Positions 31,519 through 38,340 of a stretch of 64,000 bases of DNA are shown piece after piece. Position numbers and translations under genes: made by a program. The number at the start of each line of letters is the position of its first letter. The first letter of the stretch is position 1. The notes under the pieces are model-generated. The model saw nothing but the letters and a program-made list of their open reading frames with translations, had not been told where the DNA came from and searched no databases. The stretch covers positions 90,597 to 154,596 of the forward strand of contig NZ_JAHPZL010000007.1 in assembly GCF_019331795.1 (NCBI RefSeq), written 5' to 3'. Source of the DNA: Austwickia sp. TVS 96-490-7B. Its GTDB lineage: Bacteria > Actinomycetota > Actinomycetes > Actinomycetales > Dermatophilaceae.

Positions 31519-31545
31519 CCTGACTCGTCTCACACGTTCGATCCA

Positions 31546-31579
31546 CCGAGGCCCACGCTGAAATCAGCGTGGGCCTCGG
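31546..31579 (+). terminator. Terminator after sdhCAB
   Basis: CCGAGGCCCACGCTG and its exact complement form a 15-bp stem around AAAT, followed by TGTCCTTT. It marks the left edge of the accessory JmjC island. Confidence 0.88.
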
Positions 31580-31689
31580 TGTCCTTTATCTCGATACATT
31601 GACTGTTCGATGATGAGGCTGTGCTGATTGTCCTCGTTACTAACATAGAAGAACGAAGGTGAACAGCTGGGGATTTAGACGCTCCTGAG

Positions 31690-32210
31690 ACTTGAGTGTG
31701 GCTTTATGGGGTGGGTCTATTGGCGAGGAGCAGGCAAGGTAGGGGAAGTTGCCGCGGTTGGGGAAACCTCGGACGATGCGTTGGTGGAGCTTAATGAGAC
31801 CATTGTCAGCTTCGGTGCCACCGTTGGATGCCCCGTCGGCGTCGATGTATGCGAGCAGGGGTCCAGCCCACTGCGCTTCAGGATGTGACCGAGTCGACGG
31901 ACATTCAGGATGGGACAGGCAGTCAGGATCCTCGGGAGTCGTTGCACCGCGGCCTTGCCCTGGACGAGGGTGGGGTGTGGGACAGGGCCCGCACGTCCTG
32001 GGCGACCTGCCGGGAGACCGCGAGTTCCATGTTGGACTTATGCGCGGTGAACACTGCTGTGAGGTCAGCGAGTTGGTGGTCGGTGGGGTTCTCGATGCGC
32101 GCGCAGAAGCATTCGCGCGTCGTGCGAGGGGTCGCTCCTGCTGTCACGGTGTCCCTGGGTGTCCTGCTGCACGCGGCGACGCCTTCCAGTTCCCCACCGC
32201 CGGACACTTC
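31690..32210 (-). pseudogene. ISL3-type transposase remnant
   Basis: The minus strand reads HQLADLTAVFTAHKSNMELAVSRQVAQDVRAL, RLGHILKR and, in a shifted frame, LLAYIDADGASNGGTEADNGLI followed by RIVRGFPNRGNF. This is the C-terminal region of ISL3-family transposases (DGASNGGTEA and the RGFxNRxN motif). Several frameshifts and a missing N-terminal half make it inactive. It lies at the junction between the sdh operon and the JmjC island. Confidence 0.7.
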
Positions 32211-32864
32211 GCCGCACTCATATGCCTGTCACGACGCCGCTGTGACGTCCTGTTCACCAGGATCATGGAAAGAAGATTCTTACCGAGCATCCGCTCCGAC
32301 CCTATAACCATCACGTATGCCCCTCACCGCTTGACGAGAGACATAGAGACACATCCACACACGGCCCGATCACTCCGCTTTGCGTAACCCACACTTAAAT
32401 CCACAAGAGCCGGGTAGCCAGAGAAACAAAGGCAAACTATATCATCTCCACTCCATCACAAACCTGGATTAGGCGTGCATCAAAATTTCACTGACTTCAT
32501 CCTTCAAAATGGTTCTACGGACTGTGATTTTGCCCACTTGGCATAACGCCGCTTCAAGTTCTAGACGAAGTCTTTGCTATGAGTTTGCTCATTTATGACT
32601 CTTGTTCGCCTATCTTATCGAATAAGGGGGTATTCACGGGCGGGTCGTCCGACTTCTAACCGCTCGTGAATAACGCCCAAAGAAGAAATAGGCAACCAAC
32701 GGAGTCTTCGCTTATCTAGTATTTCTAATATGCCCTAAAAGCAGAACGTGCAGTAAAAGCATTATTCGGTGCGGAAAAAGATGGTCCAGGCAAGCTTGCA
32801 GCAAAACAAGCTCTGTTCTAAAGAGATCAGTTACTATCAGAACTCATCAAGGAGAATGAAAGCC
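32211..32864. other. Low-GC stretch without a recognisable gene
   Basis: Base composition drops sharply here, marking entry into foreign DNA. It contains a deleted repeat copy (32626-32678) and only short frames; one reads KALFGAEKDGPGKLAAKQALF before a stop, which may be the tail of a lost gene. GGAG at 32851-32854 serves the first JmjC gene. Confidence 0.5.
32626..32678. repeat. Internally deleted copy of the 112-bp element
   Basis: GGGGGTATTCACG, a shortened left end, is joined directly to the right part (GGGTCGTCCGACTTCTAACC...CTCGTGAATAACGCCC) seen in the copies at 4634 and 35061. The central part is missing. Confidence 0.75.
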
Positions 32865-33904
32865 GTGAAACAGTTTCTTCCTGAAGGCGACATTGATGCA
32901 ATCAAATCGAATTGGGGTCGAAGTTTAACGCATTTTAGGTTAAATGAATCGCTAGGTTCATGGGATCAACAAACTGTCATCGATTTAATTTCAAGACCTT
33001 CTTATTTTGAAAAATTCCCTGTCTTTGCTCGCAACCATAAAGAGGAATTAAATGGGCGGCTTCACGATCTCTGTTCATGCATTGAAGCGATTAACTTAGG
33101 TTGTAGTCTCCAATTGCGAAATATAGAAGGAGCCCTAAGTGTATTTAACCCTATTAATTGCCTCGCTAGTGAGCTAGAAAAATTAGGTAAATTACCGCTC
33201 TCCACCATCACATTATTCTATACCCCCCCGGGAGAAAAAGCGCTTCCTATGCACTCAGGGCGTTATTCACGAGGCATTTCCAGGTCATTCTTGGCTACCA
33301 GCCAAGTCGATAGAGCTCGAGTCGGGTAATGACGGCAATGATATCGGGGAGTTCTGTGAGTCTGCCTCGATGTCTAACCCAATGATCTCAAAGCGGCCGA
33401 TGTTTTTATATATGTGTATGGCGACAGGTGTGTATCGATTGTTTCCCGGAGTGTAGGGGGTGGGTCGCTAACGCCTCGTGAATAACGCCCTCAGATGAGA
33501 CAGAAGTAATTGCGATACAAATATCTGGGAGTAAAATCTGGAAGATCGACGGTTATAGACACATATTAAAACTTTCACCAGGTCAAGGACTATATATTCC
33601 ATCCGATGTGATGCATGAAGTTGTTAGTTCTGCAGATGAAGCATCAATCAGCCTAGCCATAGCATTTAGCAATATCACGATTGGCGAAATTTTGACAACT
33701 GCACTCAAAACCCAAATTGGAGACGAATTGTACTATAAGCCTGTCTCGGCACGATTCACTCAAGGTGATCCTGAATCATTATTAAGCACATCGATATCAC
33801 AACATTTCCAAGAATGTTTTTCAGATACACATTTGATGAAGTCAGCTCTAAAATTAGCGCAATCAAAGTGGATTTATTCCGAAAATCTCATTCCAAAAAA
33901 CTGA
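32865..33904 (+). pseudogene. JmjC/cupin-like oxygenase 1, interrupted by a 233-bp element
   Basis: Removing the element at 33258-33490 and one TCA restores a single 267-codon frame, VKQFLPEGDIDAIKSN ... to ENLIPKN. The junction reads ALPMHS|DETEVIAIQISGSKIWKI, matching HFDENHVFTLQISGTKVWRF of the next protein. The insertion therefore separates H130 from D132, two of the three expected iron ligands; the third is H172 in DVMHEV. Translation now stops at 33329. The GTG at 32865 is preferred (GGAG 10 nt upstream). The intact ancestor would be an Fe(II)/2-oxoglutarate oxygenase of the JmjC/cupin_4/8 type. Low GC suggests recent transfer. Confidence 0.8.
33258..33490. repeat. 233-bp non-autonomous element inserted in JmjC gene 1
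   Basis: Ends GGGCGTTATTCACGAGGC and GCCTCGTGAATAACGCCC, flanked by TCA duplications (33255-33257, 33491-33493). Its right 112 bases are identical to 1-112. The minus strand of its left part could encode ELPDIIAVITRLELYRLGW before a stop, possibly the tail of the parent transposase. Confidence 0.93.
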
Positions 33905-33918
33905 AAGGAAATACCGAT

Positions 33919-35049
33919 ATGCTTCCTGAGTTAATTGAGTTCTCTAACCTCAATCTCAGTAACATTGTTGAATCATCAGAAGAATGGTGGGATAAGTCTG
34001 TAGTTTTATGGAAAAAGTGCGCTTCCCCCCAAATATTTAATTACAAACTATTCGAAAGTCTTCTCAACATGCCAGTTCCATATAATGAAAAAAATATAAG
34101 ACTAGCATCATGGCCCAGAACTGATAATTCAATTAATAATGATATAGTAGTACTTAGTCCTCGTGAACTATTGTTAAATATATCTTATGGTAAATCAATT
34201 GTACTTAATCATATGGACCGATATTTATATCAAAATCATGAGCTTATGGAATTATATAGAGATCTTTCAATGCACACAGGTACTGTAGCCCATGCAGGGC
34301 AGCTTGCCGCTTTTTATACTCCTGAGTCATCACAAGCATTTGGTAGTCATTTTGATGAAAATCACGTATTCACCTTGCAGATAAGTGGTACTAAAGTATG
34401 GAGATTCGGCGTAGAAGATGCTATAAACGTAAATTTATCAAGTGGTGATGTCTTGTATGTTCCGTACGGATTACACCATGAAGTTTTGACTACAGCGGAG
34501 CCAAGTCTCTCAGTGGCAATTATCCTTGAAGCACCAAGCCGTTCTTGGTTCAATGGTGAAATGGCTGCCAGAACTGCATATTTATCAGCTTCAGAAGGAG
34601 TAAAAGGAAGTATAGGTTCTGACTGGATGCATCTGCCTTCAGGGTTTAATGAAATCCCAATTTGCCAAATTGAACCCAAATTATTACACCAAACACAAAA
34701 CTCTCTAATAGGAGAAATATGGGAGGGGTTGCCATGTAATTATTATGATTTTTTCGCAGATTCATATTCAAGATCTAGCTCTCAATCAAGTCTATTTACA
34801 AAATATAGTTTAAGATTAGGCAATCGTGCTGATATTTATTCAATAAATGAAGATTGGTACATCAGGTCTCCTGGGCTCAGTCCGGTGTTGTTGCCAAATC
34901 GCTACAAACAAGTCTGGAAATCGCTTGCAGTTGATAAAAAGGCGACATTGCAGTGCAGTCTCAATGATTCTCATGAATTAAATAAGTTATTAAATCATTT
35001 GCGCATTGGCGCCTACTTGTATGCGGATGGAGAATACTATGATAAATAG
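33919..35049 (+). CDS. JmjC/cupin-like oxygenase 2 (intact)
   Basis: A 376-residue protein with GAAAGGAA 8 nt before the ATG. The double-stranded beta-helix core is visible: H144-x-D146 in FGSHFDENHV, LQISGTKVWRF, then GDVLYVPYGLHHEV with the distal His (H186 or H187). This is the metal triad of JmjC/cupin_4-type Fe(II)/2-oxoglutarate hydroxylases, some of which hydroxylate protein side chains (ribosomal oxygenases, FIH). Helical parts lie on both sides. It is the only undamaged JmjC gene of the three and lies upstream of a repeat peptide gene, so peptide hydroxylation is the likely role. Strongly AT-rich compared with the host. Confidence 0.78.
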   Translation: MLPELIEFSNLNLSNIVESSEEWWDKSVVLWKKCASPQIFNYKLFESLLNMPVPYNEKNIRLASWPRTDNSINNDIVVLSPRELLLNISYGKSIVLNHMDRYLYQNHELMELYRDLSMHTGTVAHAGQLAAFYTPESSQAFGSHFDENHVFTLQISGTKVWRFGVEDAINVNLSSGDVLYVPYGLHHEVLTTAEPSLSVAIILEAPSRSWFNGEMAARTAYLSASEGVKGSIGSDWMHLPSGFNEIPICQIEPKLLHQTQNSLIGEIWEGLPCNYYDFFADSYSRSSSQSSLFTKYSLRLGNRADIYSINEDWYIRSPGLSPVLLPNRYKQVWKSLAVDKKATLQCSLNDSHELNKLLNHLRIGAYLYADGEYYDK

Positions 35050-35050
35050 T

Positions 35051-36052
35051 ATGGAGATCAGGGCGTTATTCACGGGGGTTTTACCCCCTTAAGGAGAGTT
35101 AGAAAACCTGCAGGTCACAGGCCCTTGCAGCGGGCGGGTCGTCCGACTTCTAACCGCTCGTGAATAACACCCTCAGTAAAATTTCAGCCAATTTTGAGTC
35201 GAGTCGCATGTCACACTTTGCTATTGATCCGTCATTTATAAATAGCGTCATTGAAGAGTTTAGTCTCGATGCAAAGGAAGGCTTATATGATTTCTTGAAA
35301 AACAGAATGCGCGAGCTACTTTATTCAAAGAGGTAAGTAGTGTTGATGTACAAGAAGTTGTTAATGTGCGAGATTTAAGTTGGCAGGATATCACTTCGGG
35401 CACATTGGTTATTGAAGATATAGGTAAATGCAGTATGCAAATTCAAGAAGTTGCTGGCTGGCTTCATCATAATCTAGGTTATGCAAATGATGCTGGGTCG
35501 GTCGCTTTGACTATCACGGCTCCTAATCACACGGTCCCTCTTCATTACGATGGCTGCGAAGTCTTAACTTTACAGCTCACCGGTGAAAAAAAATGGTCAG
35601 TTGGCCGCGCCTATGAAGTTGATTGGCCCGATAGAGCCCTTTTTCTAAACTCACGTGATTCTGGGGCGCGCGATGGTAATCAACCGCCGAAGATATCACT
35701 TCCAGCGAATTTTTATTCCATCAATGAACTTGATGAATTTATTTTGACTGCAGGGTTTGGGGTGGCATTGCCGAGGGGGTGGTGGCACAGTACTAAAGCG
35801 GGAAATCCCAATAGAACAGGCGTAAGCGCGGGATTAATATTCAAGATTCCATCGCTATCCCTAGCTCAAAGAATCACACCTTTAATCGGCGATGAGTTAT
35901 CCAGGATTCCTAATTTCAGACGCCCATATTTGACGGGTGGAAAAAGTCGACACGGCTTGTTAGATGGAGGTGATGCTGCATCATTGATTCAAGTCGTCTC
36001 TAACATTGCTAATTCTTTGTGTTATGAGACGTCTATAGAGTTGTCTGAGTAG
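35051..36052 (+). pseudogene. JmjC/cupin-like oxygenase 3, broken by an element and a frameshift
   Basis: Removing the element at 35061-35172 with one TCA gives MEISKISANFESSRMSHF in frame from the ATG at 35051, one base after the stop of gene 2. Near 35311-35330 the frame must shift by -1 to pass from KNRMRELLY to FKEVSSVDVQEVVNVRDL. The core follows: VPLHYDG (HxD), LTLQLTGEKKWSV and PRGWWHST for the distal His. A shorter product from the GTG at 35366 (228 aa) would keep the whole metal triad and might still be made. Related to, but clearly diverged from, genes 1 and 2. Confidence 0.72.
35061..35172. repeat. 112-bp MITE-like element in JmjC gene 3
   Basis: Same length and nearly the same sequence as 4634-4745, with one change in the right terminal repeat (AACACCC for AACGCCC). 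TCA duplications flank it (35058-35060, 35173-35175). It sits after codon 3 of the third JmjC gene. Confidence 0.9.
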
Positions 36053-36081
36053 ATCAGAGATGATTAGAAGGAGTCTAGTAG

Positions 36082-36222
36082 ATGACTAGCAATATTGCGG
36101 CGAACCGGAACAACAACTGGGGTTCTGAGGTTGGTGCGGCGAACCGGAACAACAACTGGGGTTCTGAGGTTGGTGCGGCGAACCGGAACAACAACTGGGG
36201 TTCTGAGGTGGTGCATCCCTAG
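36082..36222 (+). CDS. Repeat peptide, candidate RiPP precursor (46 aa)
   Basis: The frame encodes MTSNI, two full copies of AANRNNNWGSEVG and a third ending AANRNNNWGSEVVHP. AAGGAG at 36068-36073 is 8 nt from the ATG, an excellent ribosome-binding site. The three DNA units are identical, so they are kept or were copied recently. There is almost no leader. It follows three JmjC-type oxygenase genes and precedes a hairpin and an MFS exporter, the usual order maturase, precursor, exporter. The Asn-rich NRNNNW core could be hydroxylated. No known precursor family is recognised; the RiPP reading is inference. Confidence 0.65.
   Translation: MTSNIAANRNNNWGSEVGAANRNNNWGSEVGAANRNNNWGSEVVHP
36097..36210 (+). 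repeat. Three tandem 39-bp coding repeats
   Basis: Units at 36097-36135, 36136-36174 and 36175-36210 (the last ends one codon early). Units 1 and 2 are identical over 39 bases; unit 3 is identical for 35 bases, then differs in the last base of its Val codon. Each encodes AANRNNNWGSEV(G). Confidence 0.95.
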
Positions 36223-36259
36223 CCACTGGTATATTTGTCAGATTTTCATGCAAGATATG

Positions 36260-36310
36260 ACTAGGCCCGGAGATACCAGCGAATTGTTCGCTGGTATCTC
36301 CGGGCCTAGT
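36260..36310 (+). terminator. Very strong hairpin between peptide gene and exporter
   Basis: Left arm 36260-36283 and right arm 36287-36310 are perfectly complementary over 24 bp (arms begin ACTAGGCCCGGAG), with a TTG loop, followed by TGTACTTTAAT. It would stop most transcripts after the peptide gene, so that little mRNA reaches the exporter, or protect the 3' end of the peptide mRNA. Confidence 0.85.
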
Positions 36311-36346
36311 TGTACTTTAATACTGATTCTTGCTGTGGAGGATTTG

Positions 36347-37555
36347 GTGGAGGGTTTTTTGGTTTTGCGCCAGCATGCCGCGTTGAGGTATCTACTGCTG
36401 GCTCAAGTGATCACTAATTTCGGTAACGGCTTAGCGCCAGTGGCGGTGGTGTTCTATGTGATGGATCGCAACCTTGGTCCTGAAATTCTTGGCATAGCCG
36501 GAGGGATCTATGGGTGCTGTCTTGCCGTCATGCTGCTCATAGGCGGTCATATAGGAGATTCATATGACCGCTTAACGGTGGCTTCTCGTCTCAGCCTAGT
36601 TCGAGGAATTACTCAAGGCGGTATTGCCTTATATCTTCTCTGTGTCGCGGATGGGACTTTCGGTCTTTATCTGGGGAACGGGATCCTGGGAGCTGCTGCG
36701 GGTTTGTCCATTCCATCCTCGCAGGGTGCAATGCGAGAGGTTCTCCCTCGCGAGCAGATTCATATAGGAGTCAAATTACGTTCAATTCTCCAAGAAGGTT
36801 CTCGTGTCGCTGGGACGGGGTTGGCTGGGCCGTTGTGTATTTTGGTGGGAGCCCCGGCAGTTCTCTTCGTGGATGCGCTCACGTTTTTGATCGCCTGCGT
36901 GGGATTTTGGTTAGCATCGCAGCGCAGGGTTGATACGGTTCAGCGGCGAGAGGGTGCCACCATTCGCCTGTCGGACGGTTTTCATGAAATCCGGAAAACG
37001 ACATGGCTGATGGTGCTCATGATTCAGAGCGTCATCACTCAGCTGTGCTTTTCAGGTATTGAGTCAGGGCTCCTGCCGGTCTGGGTAGGGTCCCGCTACG
37101 GAGTTGAAGTCTGGTCGGTGACCAGTGCGCTGATGATGGCGGGGAGTATTGTCGCTGGGGTGGCGCTCCTCAGGTTTGACACGCGCCCATCGCCAGCAAG
37201 TGCTTGCCTGTGGCTTGGTTTAGGATGTGCCTCCGCTCTCCTTTTCGTCCCGCCATTACCAGTCTGGGTGATTTGGGCATGTGCGTTGTCGCAAGGAGTC
37301 CTGGTGCAAATCTACAACATCCAGTGGGATATTCTTGTCATGGCCCGCATTCCATCCGATCGCTTGAGCGGTGTGATTGGTTCTTATCAAAGTGTGAACT
37401 TCATGGGGCGTCCTGCTGGATTGTTTGCTTTTTCTGTAGCCATAGGGAGTGTGGGGCAGGCTCGATGGCTTGTCATCGCTTCCCTGGTGAGCGCTTTAGT
37501 CCCACTGTGTGCTGCATTGTATCTTTGGGGGAAGAGCCAGGTGGCAAAGAGGTAG
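36347..37555 (+). CDS. MFS transporter, likely peptide exporter of the JmjC cluster
   Basis: A 402-residue protein with about 12 membrane segments (from LRYLLLAQVITNFGNGLAPVAVVFYVMD; GGHIGDSYDRLTVASR is the A-motif). The GTG at 36347 has GGAGG 5 nt upstream; an extension back over the peptide gene is an artefact. It resembles antibiotic-efflux MFS proteins. Its composition is closer to the host than that of the JmjC genes, so the cluster may be a mosaic. Product export or immunity is inferred from position. Confidence 0.82.
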   Translation: MEGFLVLRQHAALRYLLLAQVITNFGNGLAPVAVVFYVMDRNLGPEILGIAGGIYGCCLAVMLLIGGHIGDSYDRLTVASRLSLVRGITQGGIALYLLCVADGTFGLYLGNGILGAAAGLSIPSSQGAMREVLPREQIHIGVKLRSILQEGSRVAGTGLAGPLCILVGAPAVLFVDALTFLIACVGFWLASQRRVDTVQRREGATIRLSDGFHEIRKTTWLMVLMIQSVITQLCFSGIESGLLPVWVGSRYGVEVWSVTSALMMAGSIVAGVALLRFDTRPSPASACLWLGLGCASALLFVPPLPVWVIWACALSQGVLVQIYNIQWDILVMARIPSDRLSGVIGSYQSVNFMGRPAGLFAFSVAIGSVGQARWLVIASLVSALVPLCAALYLWGKSQVAKR

Positions 37556-37665
37556 GGCTGACGACACCTAGGTAGATCTGACTTGCTTTCGGTTTGCGAC
37601 AGGCTGCCGCCACTGCTGGTGTTCTTCAGCCTCGACGTACCGCCTGTTCGGAGGAGGATGAAGGT

Positions 37666-38340
37666 ATGGAGATCACTGTGGTCGGCTACAAGAGAGCGAG
37701 CGTCCCTGCGGAGCGGGCCACCGTTCATCTGATGGCGGGGTTCGAATCCGGTGACAAGAGCGAAGCGATGACCAGGGCGACGTCCCTGGTTGGCAAGCTC
37801 ACCGCGCATATCCAGGTTTTGGAAGGCGCCGGAAGCTCACCTATCACCTGGTATGCCGTCCTCCCGATGGAGACTCGATCCTGGCGGCCCCATTCGGACA
37901 GCGGGGCGATCCTGCCGCTACGTCATCAGGTCTCCGCGGAGGTCAAGGTCAAGTTCCGGGACTTCGCCGCCCTGGCGCATTTTGTCCAACAGGTCGGCGG
38001 GACAGCTGGCGTGACGTTGCACCACGTGGAGTGGACGTTGACAGAAGTCACTCAGGAGCGACTGCGTCAACAACTTTTGGCTCAAGCAGTCGCGGAAGCT
38101 ACGTCGCGGGCGGTGACCCTCGCGACCGCAGCAGGGGCGGCAGAAGTTGTTCCTCTCGAGATCGCAGACCCTGGGCTGTTGTCTGGGGTGGGTGGGGCCA
38201 TGACGACGCTGTCGGTAGGTGGGACCTCTTGGCGCGGCGCCCATTTGAGTGATTCCTCCCCCTCGGGGGAAGGAGTGCGGGTCCTCCCTGAAGACATCGT
38301 CCTCGAGGCTGAGGTGCACGCCCGTTTTGGCGCGACCTGA
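37666..38340 (+). CDS. SIMPL-domain protein
   Basis: A 224-residue protein starting MEITVVGYKRASVPAERATVHL with the duplicated SIMPL fold; QEVTQERLRQQLLAQAVAEATSRAVTLATAAG (with preceding TLTEV) is the conserved helical part. SIMPL proteins have no settled function; some are periplasmic, but no signal peptide is visible here. GGAGGA lies upstream of the ATG. It is the first host-type gene after the JmjC island. Confidence 0.8.
   Translation: MEITVVGYKRASVPAERATVHLMAGFESGDKSEAMTRATSLVGKLTAHIQVLEGAGSSPITWYAVLPMETRSWRPHSDSGAILPLRHQVSAEVKVKFRDFAALAHFVQQVGGTAGVTLHHVEWTLTEVTQERLRQQLLAQAVAEATSRAVTLATAAGAAEVVPLEIADPGLLSGVGGAMTTLSVGGTSWRGAHLSDSSPSGEGVRVLPEDIVLEAEVHARFGAT

Follow-up and report, generated by a model that had tools for sequence, protein, structure and literature searches.

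In the 64,000-nucleotide stretch of DNA analyzed here (the window), a 46-residue open reading frame (ORF) built of three head-to-tail repeat units follows three genes for JmjC_2 (PF08007) oxygenases, and we consider it moderately probable that this ORF encodes the substrate of a small cluster for peptide modification, to which the oxygenases belong. The initial annotation had proposed a precursor of the multi-core RiPP type from the repeat and had not noticed the JmjC_2 oxygenase setting; its proposal is still the best reading, and it is partly supported by the oxygenases upstream, a hairpin and an exporter gene downstream, and the presence of homologous oxygenases beside repeat peptides elsewhere. 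The repeat, the gene order, the oxygenase family with an intact metal motif, the island that holds the genes and the recurring pairing of oxygenase and repeat peptide were all directly observed. The features of the ORF are as follows.

36068 to 36073, forward strand: AAGGAG, probable ribosome-binding site as judged from the sequence, 8 nt ahead of the ATG of the peptide ORF.
36082 to 36222, forward strand: peptide ORF of 46 amino acids, ATG to TAG, consisting of MTSNI and three AANRNNNWGSEVG-type units, the last of which ends in VVHP.
36096 to 36212, forward strand: tandem array of three 39-bp units, with a T missing at the end of the third.

The peptide ORF is a real in-frame triple repeat, for which a chance origin is excluded. 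Its 46 codons read MTSNI-AANRNNNWGSEVG-AANRNNNWGSEVG-AANRNNNWGSEV-VHP, and tandem repeat analysis by TRF delimited an array at 36096–36214 with a period of 39, 3.1 copies and a score of 231, the sole other array in the 64 kb scoring 54. Exact tandem identity extended over 75 bases at this array, compared with 14 elsewhere in the window and 10–12 in three shuffles. The frame and the AAGGAG ahead of it had been reported in the initial annotation and were found in the sequence as described. It had also reported three identical units: three in-frame 39-bp units are indeed present, but the third carries GAGGTGGT in place of GAGGTTGGT, and it is through this missing T that the frame closes as VVHP and a stop codon right behind the unit. 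The recent duplication that had been suggested fits the DNA identity of the units. Each AANRNNNWGSEVG unit holds four Asn, so that the core is Asn-rich. The peptide had no family match in Pfam and NCBIfam, and no relatives of the 13-residue unit were found in three sister species, plasmids, phages or viral contigs.

With respect to the features of multi-core RiPP precursors, a repeated core (three units) is contained in one small ORF and a tailoring enzyme gene lies alongside (gene B intact, genes A and C broken), and there is no leader or follower for enzyme recognition. The ATG is immediately preceded by an in-frame TAG, which makes an in-frame leader impossible and leaves MTSNI as the only five residues ahead of unit 1, in agreement with the lack of a leader noted earlier; moreover, a leader motif scan of every frame of 31520–38000 found none. 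We regard the ORF as a probable multi-core precursor without a leader. The third-position GC of the peptide ORF, 0.70, is closer to the host value than that of genes A–C (0.28–0.48), and because of this difference the peptide and genes A–C may not have a common history.

The three oxygenase genes lie in a row on the same strand and end 30 nt upstream of the peptide ORF; they are accompanied by IS5-like mini-elements.

32628 to 32681, forward strand: lone mini-element end of the same element type, upstream of gene A.
32856 to 33904, forward strand: gene A, JmjC_2-like oxygenase, disrupted.
33258 to 33490, forward strand: IS5-like mini-element 1, 233 bp, with a TCA target duplication, inside gene A.
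33919 to 35049, forward strand: gene B, intact JmjC_2 oxygenase of 376 amino acids with an HFD...H metal motif.
35051 to 36052, forward strand: gene C, JmjC_2 oxygenase with a retained HYD...WWH motif, its 5' end cut and its frame shifted.
35061 to 35172, forward strand: mini-element 2, 112 bp, with a TCA target duplication, near the third codon of gene C.

Gene B scored 52.3 bits (E 5e-14) and the gene C frame 37.6 bits against the JmjC_2 profile, both above the curated cut-off of 22. Gene B also has the HxD...H metal triad of the family, and its residues H178, D180 and H221 (numbering from 33817) were invariant among 27 aligned sequences, namely gene B and 26 homologues. The AlphaFold model of gene B was good in the JmjC core (pLDDT of about 90 for residues 160–240) and poor in the C-terminal part; its best structure match was NO66 (Z 18.6, rmsd 3.0 over 209 residues), with YcfD and YxbC also matched, all three being folds of oxygenases that act on proteins or peptides, so that the model has a JmjC fold of the ribosomal oxygenase (ROX) type represented by NO66, MINA53 and YcfD. 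The second half of gene A (33491–33901) had 44% identity to gene B over 57 amino acids. A search for gene B in viral contigs gave no match, and gene C as a query gave nothing beyond itself across the order, and 52 pattern matches with no true relative in one GTDB scan.

Gene B is the only whole gene of the three. In gene A, mini-element 1 separates the H codon from the D codon of the iron-binding HxD motif, and the reading frame of gene C shifts between about 35290 and 35335. The insertions look real because their target duplications match; the frameshift may have arisen from misassembly. As only one of the three oxygenase genes is unbroken, function of the cluster is probably impaired in the present strain. 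The genome holds 53 matches to mini-element 1, the terminal inverted repeat of the element type being GGGCGTTATTCACGAG, and some end matches occur in the genome as pairs spaced by about 860 bp, which suggests a parent IS. Immediately ahead of gene A, at 32729–32821 of the window, an open stretch lacking a start codon reads YALKAERAVKALFGAEKDGPGKLAAKQALF up to a stop; it may be what is left of a leader or of some other gene.

Downstream of the peptide ORF are the following two features.

36260 to 36310, forward strand: hairpin, a perfect 24-bp inverted repeat with a 3-nt loop (z -10.2), probable terminator of the peptide ORF.
36347 to 37555, forward strand: MFS exporter gene beyond the hairpin, with an inferred start codon.

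The hairpin was found at a single locus genome-wide. The oxygenase genes, the peptide ORF and the MFS gene lie together in an AT-rich island bounded by sdhB and a SIMPL gene, the GC content being 37–43% in genes A–C versus 62% in the window, and no protease gene lies within the island. Sister species keep the order sdhA, sdhB, SIMPL and, where the stretch extends that far, metG. In three of them the oxygenases and the MFS gene of the island were not present between these genes, the peptide was absent from the genomes, and the MFS exporter had no orthologue (best identity, 27%).

JmjC_2 genes were recurrently found beside repeat peptides in other genomes. Among the best-scoring homologues of gene B in the phylum whose loci were fetched, six of nine were immediately preceded, in the same orientation, by a short ORF that combines a leader with Asp/Gly repeats, as exemplified by MQVDGLRDEDIVTHDSG...(GTDAN)n and MRVEGLTDQDIETVP...(SSDGDATD)n. 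Leader-plus-repeat ORFs also preceded JmjC_2 genes in five genomes from the family to which the window belongs, and at some of the loci sampled across the class. A composition scan detected Asp/Gly-repeat stretches upstream of 18 of 102 JmjC_2 domains versus 4 of 812 control stretches (odds ratio 43, P 9e-15), in a non-random sample in which one locus was counted twice (L033 = L089); a stricter count of repeat ORFs gave 6/44 versus 0/400 controls. Those of the JmjC_2-associated repeat peptides that were scanned against Pfam and NCBIfam had no earnest family match. In Actinokineospora, a JmjC_2 gene is immediately preceded by an ORF with a leader and two copies of VIADNDPSDPVL, and genes for an S9 peptidase and an ABC exporter are close by. 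The two units of this ORF differ by five bases, all of them synonymous; since the amino acids are thus unchanged, the sequence points to selection on this peptide. The combination of a repeat peptide and a JmjC_2 hydroxylase is a recurring and apparently undescribed arrangement, no description of JmjC_2-paired repeat peptides having been found in the open-access literature.

The window peptide resembles the Asp/Gly repeat peptides of Actinomycetota (for example L164, L165, L168 and L169) in being a short head-to-tail repeat ORF that adjoins a JmjC_2 homologue of gene B. It differs from them in that their leader carries a DD[DE][MI]xT-like motif and their ORFs lie upstream of the enzyme gene, whereas the window peptide is leaderless and lies downstream, and in that their cores are Asp/Gly-rich rather than Asn-rich. 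An acidic leader motif such as LSDDDMTT was present in 17 of the 19 repeat peptides compared and absent from the window peptide, which thus falls outside the class defined by an LSDDDMxT-like leader motif and Asp/Gly repeats. The Actinokineospora precursor (L127/L133) likewise has identical tandem units, of 12 residues, adjoining a JmjC_2 gene, but it has a leader, an unrelated core, and an S9 peptidase and an ABC exporter rather than an MFS protein.

Several other JmjC_2 and cupin loci were observed. Tandem pairs of JmjC_2 genes at L048, L050 and L052 adjoin ORFs of about 65–130 amino acids ending in AGCG(D/A)CYPDV(I/M), which represent another RiPP-like precursor type associated with JmjC_2, one in which a single core is conserved. 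A Dolichospermum plasmid (L047:6310-8795) carries a GG-type leader peptide with terminal RSSAQLN-like repeats, followed by a hypothetical protein and a JmjC/cupin gene; a Klebsiella plasmid (L045:5708-11090) has a cluster of arginase, two cupin, GNAT and MFS genes, with relatives of the cupins on Pantoea plasmids; and 7.9-kb mobilizable plasmids of E. coli (L088:577-2567) have an ABC gene and then a JmjC_2 gene.

JmjC_2 proteins are mainly known as ribosomal oxygenases. The window enzymes have the JmjC fold and the HxD...H metal site in common with NO66, MINA53, YcfD and YxbC of B. subtilis, at about 15–22% identity, and differ from the ROX enzymes, whose substrates are ribosomal proteins, in that their genes are clustered with one for a peptide. 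A JmjC–RiPP link in general is not new, because bacterial PF08007 proteins in RiPP-like contexts have already been noted (PMC12710340), and RiPP cases of JmjC_2 are few in the open literature searched (PMC12707348). One of these is BipG, a JmjC protein that acts on a ribosomal peptide as the ornithine hydroxylase of biphenomycin biosynthesis; its cluster has a JmjC oxygenase gene and an MFS gene like that of the window, and adds genes for an MNIO, a radical SAM enzyme, an HExxH hydroxylase and a metallopeptidase, none of which is present in the window cluster (PMC12707348). Nitrilobacillin, considered for its peptide Asp hydroxylation, was set aside, as the hydroxylases involved belong to the MNIO and HExxH types and not to JmjC.

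In the mechanism we propose, translation would yield three head-to-tail copies of AANRNNNWGSEVG, in every one of which gene B, as an Fe(II)/2-oxoglutarate JmjC_2 oxygenase, would hydroxylate side chains, formerly with the help of genes A and C. By analogy with FIH/ROX chemistry and with BipG, the sites would most likely be Asn or Arg. The units would then be cleaved from each other by a protease encoded outside the cluster, and the product would be exported by the MFS protein. The absence of a leader had been taken in the initial annotation to mean that recognition must use the repeat itself. Such a conclusion is not compelled, because related repeat peptides have a leader and most of the enzyme genes here are broken, so that leader loss is an equally good reason. 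The fuller proposal of a working leaderless multi-core precursor, whose 13-residue repeat is itself recognized by the JmjC_2 hydroxylase and which belongs to a wide undescribed class of JmjC_2-paired repeat peptides, appears unlikely.

Decay is a serious rival for the window peptide, because the leader motif is absent, no homologue was found and the enzyme genes beside the ORF are broken. It is a doubtful but substantial possibility that the ORF was once longer or had a leader and is no longer a working precursor. The disruption of genes A and C by mini-elements, the frameshift of gene C, the lone element end upstream, the base lacking in the third unit and the want of a leader motif anywhere nearby are all consistent with such a history, whereas the ORF has a good ribosome-binding site of its own, begins 14 nt ahead of the array and is framed by the hairpin, gene B is intact, and the identity of the units leaves little time since copying.

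That the array is non-coding, lying between two genes as a tandem repeat that has no connection with the oxygenases and is open in frame by accident, seems distinctly unlikely: its period of 39 preserves the frame, the ends of the ORF match those of the array within 14 nt (start) and 10 nt (end) with AAGGAG in place, and homologous oxygenases recurrently adjoin repeat ORFs. However, because the array is also open in other reading frames, an open frame alone is poor proof of coding here; the codon composition is unlike that of genes A–C, and identical DNA units give no handle on protein-level selection. A repeat peptide that stays unmodified and is active in its own right, for instance as a signal or as a small bacteriocin that the MFS protein exports, would accord with the absent leader and the nearby exporter gene, but is very improbable given that the hairpin separates the ORF from the MFS gene, the oxygenases are near neighbours and the ORF has no signal sequence.

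The pairing suggests repeat-built peptides, of kinds absent from the family libraries scanned, as the substrates of many JmjC_2 enzymes in actinobacteria, and it offers a direct test of what these enzymes hydroxylate. The window peptide, in turn, would test whether a JmjC_2 enzyme can work without a leader.
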